DNA from: an uncultured Myxococcales bacterium
Lineage (GTDB): Bacteria > Myxococcota_A > UBA9042
Assembly: GCA_937910235.1 (NCBI GenBank)
Contig: CALENB010000220.1
Coordinates: forward strand, 1-35,390
DNA: 35,390 nucleotides
Direction: 5' to 3'
The translations under genes and the position numbers were made by a program. The notes under the pieces were generated by a model. The model worked only from the letters and a program-made list of their open reading frames with translations, had not been told where the DNA came from and did not search any database. Positions 26,703 through 35,390 of the stretch are shown here, in pieces. Position 1 is the first letter of the stretch. Every line of letters begins with the position of its first letter.

Positions 26703-28247
26703 TCAGTGGACCGCGACCTCTGAGACTGCGCGTGCGGCTAGGACAGCCTCACGCTGCTCCGGCGAGACGGCTCCCCAGCCGGGTTCGTACGCGAAGACGT
26801 CGCGGGCCAGGCGCGAGCCGAACTGGCCATCGAGGATCTCGAACTTGTCGAGACCGACCAACCCCGGATGCGCCTCGCCGAGCGCGTGGCTCAGCGACAG
26901 CAGCTCGTAGCGAAACATAGCGATGTAGTTCGCGTAGCGGTTCGCTTTGTGGGTCGGATCCAGACCGCGCATCAGCCAAGGGTTCTGGGTCGCGACGCCC
27001 GCTGGACAGTGCCCGGTGTGGCACTTCTGCGCCTGAATGCAGCCGATCGAGAGCATCGCCTCGCGTGCCACGGCGAGCATGTCGCACCCGAGCGCGAGGG
27101 CGAGCATCGCGTCGGGCGGCAGGCCGAGCTTGCCGGAGCCGATCCACACGACGTTCTGTTGAATGCCACGCTCGCAAAAGATGCGATAAACCCGCGTGAA
27201 AGCGAGCTTCCAGGGCAGCGACACGTGATCGCTGAACACCAGAGGCGCCGCGCCGGTGCCGCCCTCTCCGCCATCGATCTGGATGTAGTCGACGCCGCGC
27301 TCTCCGCTCACCATGAGGTCGGCCAGCTCTTCGAAGAACTCGAGCTGCCCCACTGCCGTTTTGATACCGACCGGCAGGCCCGTCTCGGCGGCCAGCAGCT
27401 CGACGAAATCGAGCAAGCCGTTCGCGTCTGAAAACTGGGTGTGGGCGGCCGGGCTGAGCACGGTCTGGCCGACCGGAACGCCCCGAATCGCCGCGATCTC
27501 CGGCGTCACCTTCGCGCCCGGCAGCACGCCGCCCTTGCCCGGTTTGGCGCCTTGGCTGAGCTTGATCTCCAGCATACGCACGTCGTAGCGCGCGACGCGC
27601 TCCTTGAGCATGGCGAGGTCGAAGTTGCCCTGCGCGTCACGACAGCCAAAATACCCGGTGCCGATCTGCCAGATGAGCCCGCCGCCGTGGTCGTGGTGCG
27701 ACGCGATGCCGCCTTCTCCCGTGTTGTGCAGCGAACCGGCGATGGCCGAGCCGCGATTGAGCGCTTCGACGGCCGACGCGGACAGGGAACCGAAGCTCAT
27801 GGCCGACAGGTTGACGATCGAGTTCGGGCGAAAGGCGCGCGTTCGGCCCCGTGGCCCACCGACGATCTTGGCGCACGGTATGTTGAAGAGCGGCCCCGGA
27901 AAGCTGGCGCCGGCATAGGGGAAGGTGGCCTGCTTGAGGATCAGGTAGTTGTCGACGCGCTCGACTTCGTTGTCCGTGCCAAACCCAAACAGGTTGTTTT
28001 CCTGCTTCGAGCTCGCATAGATCCACCGACGCTGATCGCGCGAGAAGGGCAGCTCCTCGTCGTTGTTGGTGACGATGTACTGCCGCAGCTCCGGCCCGAC
28101 CCGCTCGAGGAGGTAGCGGAGATGGCCGATGATCGGGTAGTTGTGGATGATCGCGTGCTTTTTCTGAAACACGTCACGGGCTACTATCGCGCTCACAACG
28201 AGGCCGATGCCACCGGCCATGAGCGCAGTCGTCGACAGGTCCATCAT
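26703..28247 (-). CDS. Glutamate-synthase-like FMN-binding protein, membrane-anchored
   Basis: Single-domain homologue of the FMN/Fe-S half of glutamate synthase (GltB-like, GltS family), 514 residues. A membrane anchor is at about 8-26 (ALMAGGIGLVVSAIVARDVF). FMN-binding barrel motifs follow: NLSAMSFGSLSASAVEAL, HNTGEGGIASHHDHGG, IEIKLSQGAKPGKGGVLPG (shown as MLEIKLSQGAKPGKGG here), DYIQIDGGEGGTGAAP. The three cysteines of the [3Fe-4S] site are in GCIQAQKCHTGHCP, spaced as in GltB, followed by GVATQ. The amidotransferase domain is absent, so ammonia or another donor would be needed; physiological role of such stand-alone proteins is mostly unknown. ATG 28247 follows AGGAGG by five bases. It is divergent from the orphan E1alpha gene. 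Confidence 0.9.
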   Translation of the reverse strand: MMDLSTTALMAGGIGLVVSAIVARDVFQKKHAIIHNYPIIGHLRYLLERVGPELRQYIVTNNDEELPFSRDQRRWIYASSKQENNLFGFGTDNEVERVDNYLILKQATFPYAGASFPGPLFNIPCAKIVGGPRGRTRAFRPNSIVNLSAMSFGSLSASAVEALNRGSAIAGSLHNTGEGGIASHHDHGGGLIWQIGTGYFGCRDAQGNFDLAMLKERVARYDVRMLEIKLSQGAKPGKGGVLPGAKVTPEIAAIRGVPVGQTVLSPAAHTQFSDANGLLDFVELLAAETGLPVGIKTAVGQLEFFEELADLMVSGERGVDYIQIDGGEGGTGAAPLVFSDHVSLPWKLAFTRVYRIFCERGIQQNVVWIGSGKLGLPPDAMLALALGCDMLAVAREAMLSIGCIQAQKCHTGHCPAGVATQNPWLMRGLDPTHKANRYANYIAMFRYELLSLSHALGEAHPGLVGLDKFEILDGQFGSRLARDVFAYEPGWGAVSPEQREAVLAARAVSEVAVH

Positions 28248-28326
28248 GATGTCCTCCTATGGAGATCGCAGCATGACACGGCCCACGCGTTGGCGGCTAG
28301 CAGGCTGGAGTTGCGGGGCCGTCGCG

Positions 28327-28369
28327 CTGGTCCATCACGCTGGTCCATCACGCTGGTCCATCACGCTGG
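28327..28369. repeat. 13-bp tandem repeat, three copies plus a partial
   Basis: The unit CTGGTCCATCACG occurs three times in a row without mismatch, followed by four more bases of the next copy. It is in the 162-base gap between two divergent genes, about 40 bases upstream of the E1alpha start at 28410, so it overlaps the likely promoter or leader region of that gene. Confidence 0.95.
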
Positions 28370-28409
28370 GCCGGCCTGTGGTAGAACCGCGCCGCACCCA
28401 GAGGTTGTC

Positions 28410-29606
28410 ATGGCCGAACTAAGCTACAGCACCGCGTTTCCGTCATTCGATCCCGCTGATCTGGCCCAGGCGCGTGGGCTGTTTCGGGTCCTGGATGAGC
28501 ATGGCCGCGAGGTGGCCGTCGATGGTGACGAAGCGACTGGCCAGGCAGGCGTCGAGGACGAGGTGGCGCTCCGGATGTGGCGCAGCATGGTGCGGATTCG
28601 CGTCGTCGACGACCGGCTCCTGGCGCTGCAGCGACAGGGACGCATCGGCTTCTACGGCGCCGCGACAGGGCAAGAGGCCAGCGTGATCGCGGCTGCGGAG
28701 GCGATGGAGATCAGAGATTGGATTCACCCCGCGTTGCGCGAGGGCGGCATGGCGCTGCATCGTGGCTTCTCGCTGCGGACCTGGTTGTCACACTGCTTTG
28801 GCAACGCGGAAGATACCTGCACCAAGGGCCGCCAGATGCCGTGCCACTATGGTTCGCGCGCGCATGGTTACGTGACGCTCTCTTCGGTTATGACGACGCA
28901 GTTTCCCCAGGCGGTGGGCACCGCGTATGCGATGGCCTTGAAGCACCCCTCGCCCGATGATCGACCGATTTGTTTTGCTGCGATTGGGGATGGCGCCACC
29001 AGCGAGGGCGATTTTCACGTCGCGATGAACTTCGCCGGCGTCATGCGCCCGGGAGGCCGTGGGTTGCCGCTGATCCTGTTCTGCCAGAACAACCAGTGGG
29101 CGATCAGCACCCCGGGAAGCAAGCAATGTGCCGCTGAAACCCTGGCGATCAAGGCTGTCGGCTATGGCCTGGTCGGCGTGCGCGTGGACGGCAATGACGC
29201 GCTCGCCGTCCTCCGCGTGATGCGGGAGGCCGTCGCGCGGGCCCGTCGTGGCGAGCCGCCGGTGTTCATCGAAGCCGTGACGTATCGGGTTGGCGCGCAC
29301 ACCACGTCCGACGATCCGAGCCGCTACCGCGACGAGAGCGTGACCGAACGTTGGCGCGACCTGGACCCGATCGCCCGCTTGGAGGCGTGGTTAGGATCGC
29401 GCGGTGTGCTCTCAGCAGCAGACGTGGCCGACTGGCGGCAGGCGTGTGACACCGAGGTGCGCACGCTGCTCACGGAGGTCGAGGGCATCGCTCCGCCGGC
29501 GCTCCGCACGCTGTTTGAAGACGTCTACGCCGAGATGCCGGCTCACCTGGAGACGCAGTTTGCCGCTGCGTCGGCGCAAGCCAGCACGTCGGTTGGCCCG
29601 GCCTGA
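28410..29606 (+). CDS. Second 2-oxoacid dehydrogenase E1 alpha subunit (orphan)
   Basis: Alpha subunit of a thiamine-diphosphate-dependent E1 enzyme, 398 residues. The cofactor motif GDGATSEGDFHVAMNFAG and NNQWAISTPGSKQ are complete, with the loop GAHTTSDDPSRYRDES following. LQRQGRIGFYGAATGQEA near residues 70-87 is conserved. It is a paralogue of the E1alpha gene at 13571-14731, but no E1beta or E2 gene is next to it in this window. The N-terminal extension of about 55 residues (FRVLDEHGREVAVDG) resembles that of branched-chain E1alpha proteins. ATG 28410 has AGAGG five bases upstream. It might share the E1beta subunit encoded about 14 kb away, or have its own partner elsewhere. A 13-bp tandem repeat lies in its upstream region. 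Confidence 0.93.
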   Translation: MAELSYSTAFPSFDPADLAQARGLFRVLDEHGREVAVDGDEATGQAGVEDEVALRMWRSMVRIRVVDDRLLALQRQGRIGFYGAATGQEASVIAAAEAMEIRDWIHPALREGGMALHRGFSLRTWLSHCFGNAEDTCTKGRQMPCHYGSRAHGYVTLSSVMTTQFPQAVGTAYAMALKHPSPDDRPICFAAIGDGATSEGDFHVAMNFAGVMRPGGRGLPLILFCQNNQWAISTPGSKQCAAETLAIKAVGYGLVGVRVDGNDALAVLRVMREAVARARRGEPPVFIEAVTYRVGAHTTSDDPSRYRDESVTERWRDLDPIARLEAWLGSRGVLSAADVADWRQACDTEVRTLLTEVEGIAPPALRTLFEDVYAEMPAHLETQFAAASAQASTSVGPA

Positions 29607-33557: not shown

Positions 33558-33831
33558 GAGGACTCCTGAGGTGGGTGACCAAGGAGTTCAACCCCGCCCG
33601 AGTCCCAAGGTGTTACCTCAAGATTCGGCAGCTGCCGGATCGACCTGGGATACGATGGCGATGCGTCCTCTCCAGTATGACAATCTGGGGATGAGGTCGT
33701 ACGCTGCCGCCGACCCGCGGCGTGCGGCCGTGTGCGCTGCCGCTGTGTCCGAAGCTCGGCGTGGCAAGCTGCGCCTGGCCGCTTGCGTACGTGGGTCCGT
33801 CGCCCACCCTGATCTGCTGGAGGTTTCTCTG

Positions 33832-34185
33832 ATGATGACGCTGATCTGCACCCGAACTTGAAGCGCTTGTCGCAAGGCGGTCGCCTTGCTGAAGGAACAC
33901 AACATCCCGTTCACGTACCGCGAATACACCGAGGCGCCGTTGAGCCGCGTTGAGATTGAGGCCGCGCTCGCTGGGTTGGCCATGTCGGTTCAAGACGTGC
34001 TGCGCAAGCGCGACGCGAACAAGTACGGCTTCTCCGGCGCTGAGTCGGACGACGTGCTGCTCGACGCCATGGCGGCGAACCCGCGCATGCTGCAGCGCCC
34101 TATCGGTCTGTTTGCCGGTCGCGCCGAGCTGGGTCGACCACCGGAGAATCTGTTGCGTCTGGTCGGGGCGGGCGCCGCGTCATGA
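33832..34185 (+). CDS. Predicted selenoprotein: ArsC-family (arsenate reductase/Spx-like) with U-S-A-C motif
   Basis: Predicted protein of 117 residues, read through an in-frame TGA at 33859-33861 as selenocysteine. The reading from ATG 33832 (GGAGG eight bases upstream) is LICTRT-U-SACRKAVALL. Sec10 and Cys13 stand where Spx has its Cys10-x-x-Cys13 pair and where ArsC has its catalytic cysteine. The downstream part is typical of the family: HNIPFTYREYTEAPLS, VLRKRDANKYGF, and RPIGLFAGRAELGRPPENLL. Arg58, Arg89 and Arg102 match the three ArsC arginines as I recall them (60, 94, 107); spacing from the catalytic residue to the first arginine is 48 in both. A stem-loop like a bacterial SECIS follows the TGA. 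Without readthrough, only a 99-residue piece from a TTG at 33886, lacking the active site, would be called. Its stop overlaps the next start. Selenium insertion is inferred, not shown. Confidence 0.85.
33859..33894 (+). promoter_or_regulatory. Predicted bacterial SECIS element with its UGA codon
   Basis: The TGA (33859-33861) is followed after 10 bases by a perfect 7-bp stem, GCAAGGC (33872-33878) with GCCTTGC (33883-33889), closing a four-base loop GGTC. A short lower helix is possible between CTT at 33866-33868 and AAG at 33892-33894. In E. coli fdhF the SelB-recognised loop also contains GGUC about 20 bases after the UGA; here the loop begins at base 21 counted from the U. The element lies wholly in coding sequence, as bacterial SECIS elements do. 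Confidence 0.75.
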
Positions 34186-35390
34186 TCGTGCCGCCGTCAG
34201 CCCCCGGCGCCGGAGGTCCGGCGCTCAACGACCGCGATATGAGCGTGTTGGCGCTGGCCCGCCTGTTGCGCGGCCGCGGTGACGCGGCGCAGGCCGTGCA
34301 GCTGCTCGACGCGACCTTGAGCCAGGCGCGTCTGCAGACGCCGGCGACCACCACGCTGTCGGCCGACGTCGCGTGGCTGCACCTCGAACGCGCCGGTTTG
34401 AGTCAAGACGCTGGTGATCTGACGTCGGCGGATCATCACGGGCTGCGCGGCGTGTTCCATTTTCAGCGGGCGGGGGACCGCGGTGGCCAAGCCGCTGCCG
34501 CCCTGCTGCTAGGAGATCTCGCCTGGCAGGGCGGAAATCCGGAGGCTGCGGCGCGGTGGTGGACACGCTGCCACGCGCTCGCGGACAACGTCGGCAACCC
34601 GATGCTCGGCGCGCGGGCGCTCGCGGCGCTGGCCTTGCTCGAGCTGTCGATGGCGCGCCCCGATCAAGCCGAGGCGATGCTCGCCGCCGCCGAACACCGC
34701 GCCCAGACCGATCTCGACGAGGCGCTCGCCGGCGAGGTGCTCGACACAGGCACTCGCGGCTTGCGGACTGAGGCGAGGGCCGAGACGCGCGTCGTCGAGG
34801 CCTCCGTCGCCTTGGTGCGCGCCCGCCAGGCGATTCGGGCGGGGCGATGGTCCGCTGCCCGTCTGCTGCTTGGCGCTGTCGCCGAAGTAGCGCAGCAGCA
34901 GGGCGCGCCGGGGCTCTACGTCGACGCGCTGCGCCTCGACGCTGTGGTCGCGCGACGCCAGGGCGATCCGCGCAGCGCCGCCGAAGGGCTCATCCTCGCG
35001 GCGGACGCGGCACGTGCGGCCGGCATGCTGCGGCTCGCCGCGCTTGTCGACACCGAGCGCGTGCTCGCGCTGGCTGACAACGAGGCCTGGCCGGAGGCTT
35101 TCGCCCTACAAAATCAGGCTCCGCCGCCGTCCATCGCCGCGCAGCCGGCCGTGCACGCCGCCCGCTTGGAGGCGTTCGCGGTGCTGTCCCTGCGCGCAGG
35201 CAACGCGATCGCCGCGGAGCGCTCGGCAGCTGAGGCCGAGGCCACCCGGCTCGCGGCCCACGACTTTGCTGGGAGCGCGCGCGCCACCGCGTTGCTCGCC
35301 GAGGCGCAGCTCGCCGGTGGAGACGTCGCGCTCGCCGCTGAGACCGCCGAGCGCGCGGCCGCAGCGGCGGTAAGCGCCGGCCGAATCGAC
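34182..35390 (+). CDS. TPR-like repeat protein, C-terminus beyond window edge
   Basis: The ATG at 34182 overlaps the selenoprotein stop (ATGA) and the frame remains open to the last base, giving 403 visible residues. The sequence is almost all helical and Ala/Leu/Arg-rich, with repeated A-x-x-x-A/L-L patterns of tetratricopeptide or SEL1-like repeats, for example VLALARLLRGRGDAAQAVQL, AAALLLGDLAWQGGNPEAAA and ALRLDAVVARRQGDPRSAAE. No signal peptide or membrane segment is evident. A protein-protein scaffold is the most that can be inferred. Its coupling to the selenoprotein suggests the two are made together, but a functional link is not shown. The downstream end, and so any catalytic or DNA-binding domain, is outside the window. 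Confidence 0.8.
   Translation, partial: MIVPPSAPGAGGPALNDRDMSVLALARLLRGRGDAAQAVQLLDATLSQARLQTPATTTLSADVAWLHLERAGLSQDAGDLTSADHHGLRGVFHFQRAGDRGGQAAAALLLGDLAWQGGNPEAAARWWTRCHALADNVGNPMLGARALAALALLELSMARPDQAEAMLAAAEHRAQTDLDEALAGEVLDTGTRGLRTEARAETRVVEASVALVRARQAIRAGRWSAARLLLGAVAEVAQQQGAPGLYVDALRLDAVVARRQGDPRSAAEGLILAADAARAAGMLRLAALVDTERVLALADNEAWPEAFALQNQAPPPSIAAQPAVHAARLEAFAVLSLRAGNAIAAERSAAEAEATRLAAHDFAGSARATALLAEAQLAGGDVALAAETAERAAAAAVSAGRID

Follow-up and report, generated by a model that had tools for sequence, protein, structure and literature searches.

Predicted selenocysteine at the catalytic position of an ArsC-family protein from an uncultured Myxococcales bacterium

An ArsC-family gene of an uncultured Myxococcales bacterium is interrupted by a TGA at the codon of the reactive cysteine, and comparative sequence evidence makes it very probable that its product, a 117-residue protein with a thioredoxin fold of the ArsC/Spx branch, is a selenoprotein; this high confidence covers the selenoprotein statement and not the substrate. 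The stretch of 35,390 nucleotides that was analysed, termed the window, comes from contig 220 of a genome of 7.1 Mb in 593 contigs. The features of the gene and its immediate surroundings are listed below.

33819-33823, + strand: Shine-Dalgarno-like GGAGG, 8 nt ahead of the ATG, read directly from the sequence
33832-34185, + strand: arsC-family selenoprotein gene (predicted), 117 codons and a stop, with UGA as Sec at codon 10; orthologues share the in-frame TGA
33859-33861, + strand: predicted Sec codon UGA, opposite catalytic Cys12 in the alignment with ArsC (R773)
33868-33870, + strand: TGT for Cys13, the predicted resolving cysteine of U-x-x-C, nearly invariant in the alignment of relatives
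33872-33889, + strand: candidate bacterial SECIS apical stem-loop GCAAGGC-GGUC-GCCUUGC, whose loop begins 17 nt past the UGA
34003-34005, + strand: Arg58, equivalent to ArsC Arg60 by alignment
34096-34098, + strand: Arg89, equivalent to ArsC Arg94 by alignment
34135-34137, + strand: Arg102, equivalent to ArsC Arg107 by alignment
34182-35390, + strand: downstream gene without a Pfam match, running off the contig; its ATG overlaps the arsC stop (ATGA)

Translation would start at the ATG at 33832, and the TGA at 33859-33861 is the sole interruption of the 117-codon frame, which continues to the next in-frame stop, TGA 34183-34185. The readthrough product begins MMTLICTRTUSACRKAVALLK and matches Pfam ArsC (PF03960) at 35.9 bits against a gathering cut-off of 24. 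A sequence-only reading of this DNA had proposed an in-frame TGA within a well-started ArsC-family gene, with Sec at the reactive-cysteine site and Cys at +3. Both proposals are borne out, the first by the start signals (GGAGG, 8 nt, ATG) together with the PF03960 match past the TGA, and the second by the alignment of the TGA with Cys12 of the E. coli plasmid ArsC.

The strongest evidence is evolutionary. Relatives were gathered from class, phylum and named genome collections, and 47 distinct sequences had a readable site. The codon at the site is TGA in 40, TGC in five and TGT in two, with no TAA or TAG; cysteine, which the earlier reading expected at this position in relatives, is thus found in 7 of 47, and neither other stops nor frameshifts, which that reading had named as signs against it, occur at the site in any of them. 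The maximum-likelihood tree places all 40 Sec forms and four Cys forms in one clade (support 99/99), with the four Cys forms nested among the Sec forms; one genus contains both a Cys form (G145) and a Sec form (G255). The site codon of G145 is TGC, and the one TGA in its match lies elsewhere. Additional stops counted in the matches likewise fall away from the site in those loci that were read. Named clade members are MAGs of Myxococcota, Gemmatimonadota, Planctomycetota, Calditrichota and Acidobacteriota (Thermoanaerobaculia), and every named Sec sequence is MAG-derived. The relatives from Nitrospira carry Cys and fall outside the Sec clade. Within the genus, codons past the TGA show dN of 0.16-0.19 and dS from 0.65 to saturated, indicating purifying selection. 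The plasmid search returned 404 records, all below 60% identity (33-36% among the five matches listed). We also note an ArsC-like frame in another genome (L024, G013:C82 6005-9343) with a TGA five codons before the reactive-Cys codon (LY*KSTC). A homologue in that same genome, L025, has TGG at the position of this TGA (LYWKSTC); L024 has the look of a decayed copy or of a single-base error, not of a Sec gene.

The machinery for selenocysteine insertion, sought by family searches, is complete in the same genome, as the earlier reading had proposed to check: tRNA-Sec (80.5 bits), SelB (above cut-off), SelA (a single 565-residue open frame) and SelD are all present. The SelD gene (G000:C411, locus L036 1501-2439) has an in-frame UGA at the canonical Sec site (SHGAGUACK) and would therefore itself encode a selenoprotein. 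Co-occurrence was assessed across 379 genomes of the phylum, a fixed sample in which 33 carry a close homologue; the loci of 31 carriers were read, and one (G145) is a Cys form. SelA is present in 32 of the 33 carriers vs 208 of the 346 remaining genomes (P=2.7e-6), and the only carrier without a detectable SelA is an 87% complete MAG (G049).

The candidate SECIS element begins 10 nt past the UGA and consists of a 7-bp stem closed by a GGUC loop, with a stem-loop energy of -12.5 kcal/mol. The published bSECIS model calls for a loop of 3-9 nt with G in the first two positions, a stem of 4-16 bp, a UGA-loop spacing of 16-37 nt and an MFE <= -7.5 kcal/mol (PMC13188914), and the hairpin at 33872-33889 falls within all of these limits. 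The Rfam search of the hairpin gave no match, only sub-threshold noise, and folding of the whole region (61 nt) was uninformative (z-score +0.48). A simple stem scan is unspecific: of the 174 in-frame TGAs in the window that qualified as candidates, 23 come with a 7-bp stem resembling a SECIS. In addition, 3.4% of synonymous redraws of the gene retain the same stem. The stem by itself is weak evidence, and it is the evolutionary evidence that carries the selenoprotein case. Of the 40 Sec forms, 39 have a GGTC loop and 37 have all seven stem pairs intact, and the pair +15/+24 has changed on both sides, from G-C to A-T, in four Sec sequences. Codon choice in the stem is skewed relative to usage elsewhere in the same genes: GCG and GTC each occur in 39 of 40 Sec forms, and Leu is TTG in 37 of 40 vs 64 of 528 (12%) elsewhere (Fisher P=2e-27, a value that, like the other Fisher P values, overstates independence because the sequences share ancestry). 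The contrast with the seven Cys forms, in which the stem pairs and the loop identity are lost in the same region, is the safer argument. Taken as sequence patterns, these observations show the marks of a hairpin RNA under selection of its own.

On the strength of the conserved RNA structure, the Sec/Cys exchange and the complete Sec machinery, we infer that SelB, together with the SECIS hairpin immediately 3' of the codon, would direct selenocysteine insertion at the UGA at 33859-33861. The motif and the fold suggest how the product may work: the selenol at position 10 would act as the attacking nucleophile, Cys13 would resolve it with formation of a U-x-x-C selenenylsulfide, and a cellular thiol reductant would have to reopen this bond. 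The conserved pocket of Arg58, Arg89 and Arg102 would favour an oxyanion-type substrate. A thioredoxin-like fold, U-x-x-C and the Arg triad are best read as the signature of a selenol-based reductase with a selenenylsulfide intermediate. Arsenate has the family precedent as a substrate, with general thiol-disulfide reduction or reduction of another oxyanion or oxide about equally likely.

The AF2 model of the product (pLDDT 92.1) is matched best in the PDB by the arsenate reductases 3rdw, 3f0i and 1i9d (TM 0.82-0.87), with Spx next, and the PDB profile search likewise returned arsenate reductases and Spx. The top NCBIfam match is TIGR00014 arsC at 67.8 bits, under its curated cut-off of 106.05. 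With NF041106, the model for ArsC family (seleno)proteins, the product reaches 16.6 bits where the cut-off is 85, which places it outside that subfamily. Since both scores lie below their cut-offs, the subfamily looks unmodelled.

Of the readings that go beyond the selenoprotein statement, one takes the product for a Grx/Trx-coupled seleno-arsenate reductase with arsenic detoxification as its main role. It concerns the substrate and is compatible with the selenoprotein reading. The catalytic position and all three ArsC arginines are retained, the nearest structures are arsenate reductases, and TIGR00014 is the best NCBIfam match, though below its cut-off. ArsC requires Cys12, Arg60, Arg94 and Arg107 (PMC5155266). 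The earlier reading had taken the three arginines as those expected of arsenate reductases; R58, R89 and R102 do align with R60, R94 and R107, but the function finds no support in gene context or co-occurrence. No ars genes stand beside the gene here or among the 20 flanking ORFs of related loci, and the neighbourhood analysis found no conserved partner outside the genus. The downstream neighbour is conserved within the genus only (two sister species, L067 and L068), and its 4-nt overlap with the gene (ATGA) possibly reflects translational coupling. Acr3, the arsenic gene on which the co-occurrence count is based, is not enriched, occurring in 16 of 33 carriers vs 160 of 346 other genomes. Elsewhere in its own genome (G000:C248, locus L095 3396-5018, - strand), an Acr3-type arsenite permease adjoins a protein of the low-molecular-weight phosphatase (LMWP) family, which includes a different type of arsenate reductase, and this pair is probably the main arsenic operon of the genome. 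Some documented ArsC-like genes play no part in arsenic resistance, although those had lost one arginine (PMC5155266). Given the lack of ars context and of Acr3 enrichment and the separate Acr3/LMWP pair, arsenic detoxification as the main role is judged plausible at somewhat less than an even chance.

Elsewhere in the window, two long ORFs at 26706-28247 (- strand) and 27441-29603 (+ strand) overlap at their ends on opposite strands. Both have strong Pfam matches, to a glutamate synthase domain and a dehydrogenase E1 component, respectively; the overlap does not reach the E1 match, and the true start of the + strand gene is therefore probably downstream.

With somewhat less than an even chance, the product belongs to a distinct and unmodelled subfamily of ArsC-fold selenoenzymes with U-x-x-C and an intact Arg triad, found in at least five phyla, which would have kept the arsenate pocket while becoming uncoupled from arsenic genes and would act on another oxidised substrate. 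A role as an Spx-like redox switch, in which U-x-x-C is a sensor on a protein that binds RNA polymerase rather than the active site of an enzyme, is improbable. U-x-x-C does have its counterpart in the C-x-x-C of Spx, the top fold matches include Spx structures, and profiles related to Spx are hit (PRK01655 at 41 bits); yet the product scores far under the cut-offs of the Spx models NF002459 and TIGR01617 (41 vs 123 and 34.7 vs 75.05) and retains two arginines of the arsenate pocket, Arg58 and Arg102. To our knowledge, Spx-type regulation is not established outside Firmicutes. That the gene is a pseudogene, or that the TGA is an ordinary stop or an assembly error, is very improbable: the frame is truly interrupted and a lone 7-bp stem is not rare in such GC-rich DNA, but 40 distinct sequences, drawn from many assemblies and several phyla, have TGA at the same codon, Cys is the sole alternative at the site, and purifying selection past the TGA, the conserved hairpin and the complete Sec machinery all speak against it. 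In particular, dozens of independent assemblies share this TGA, which makes an assembly error at 33859 hiding a true TGC or TGT unlikely.

Selenoproteins of this kind are widespread and already recognised, and the selenoprotein nature of the product is no surprise to specialists. Gene callers that halt at the TGA would truncate or miss the gene, and the single curated seleno-ArsC model is blind to the product; the subfamily is therefore probably missing from the annotations of several environmental phyla. The contribution of selenium to the enzyme could be tested directly on natural Sec/Cys pairs such as G255 and G145, which share a genus.

The literature search on Myxococcota selenoproteomes, or on Sec-ArsC in that phylum, found nothing relevant. 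For the family as a whole, the description of a Sec-containing member as "at most rarely described" proved too strong. A UxxS arsenate reductase containing Sec was reported from the Sargasso Sea in 2005 with 14 sequences (PMC1088965), the GOS selenoproteome of 2008 listed 77 UxxS sequences and 42 of a UxxC form, "Arsenate reductase 2" (cd03032) (PMC2398784), and a 2026 review gives both forms, UxxS under TIGR00014 and UxxC under NF041106 (PMC13188914). GOS "Arsenate reductase 2" resembles the product in its ArsC-family domain, in having Sec in place of the reactive Cys within U-x-x-C, and in the frequency of Cys homologues; it is known from environmental reads, the 42 sequences above (PMC2398784), and could correspond to the present clade. 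The UxxS enzyme has the same domain and Sec position, but its U-x-x-S lacks a resolving Cys at +3 (PMC1088965; TIGR00014 in PMC13188914). NF041106 (ArsC_rel_Se_1) is likewise ArsC-related with UxxC (PMC13188914), and differs in that the product stays well below its cut-off. ArsC of the E. coli plasmid R773 (1i9d) has the same fold (TM 0.86), with Cys12 corresponding to Sec10 and Arg60/94/107 to Arg58/89/102; identity is about 27%, and the product has Sec and a resolving Cys. R773 ArsC uses a single catalytic Cys and needs glutaredoxin. Bacillus Spx (1z3e) shares the fold and the x-x-C spacing of the redox pair, while the product remains below the Spx family cut-offs and retains the arginines of the arsenate pocket.
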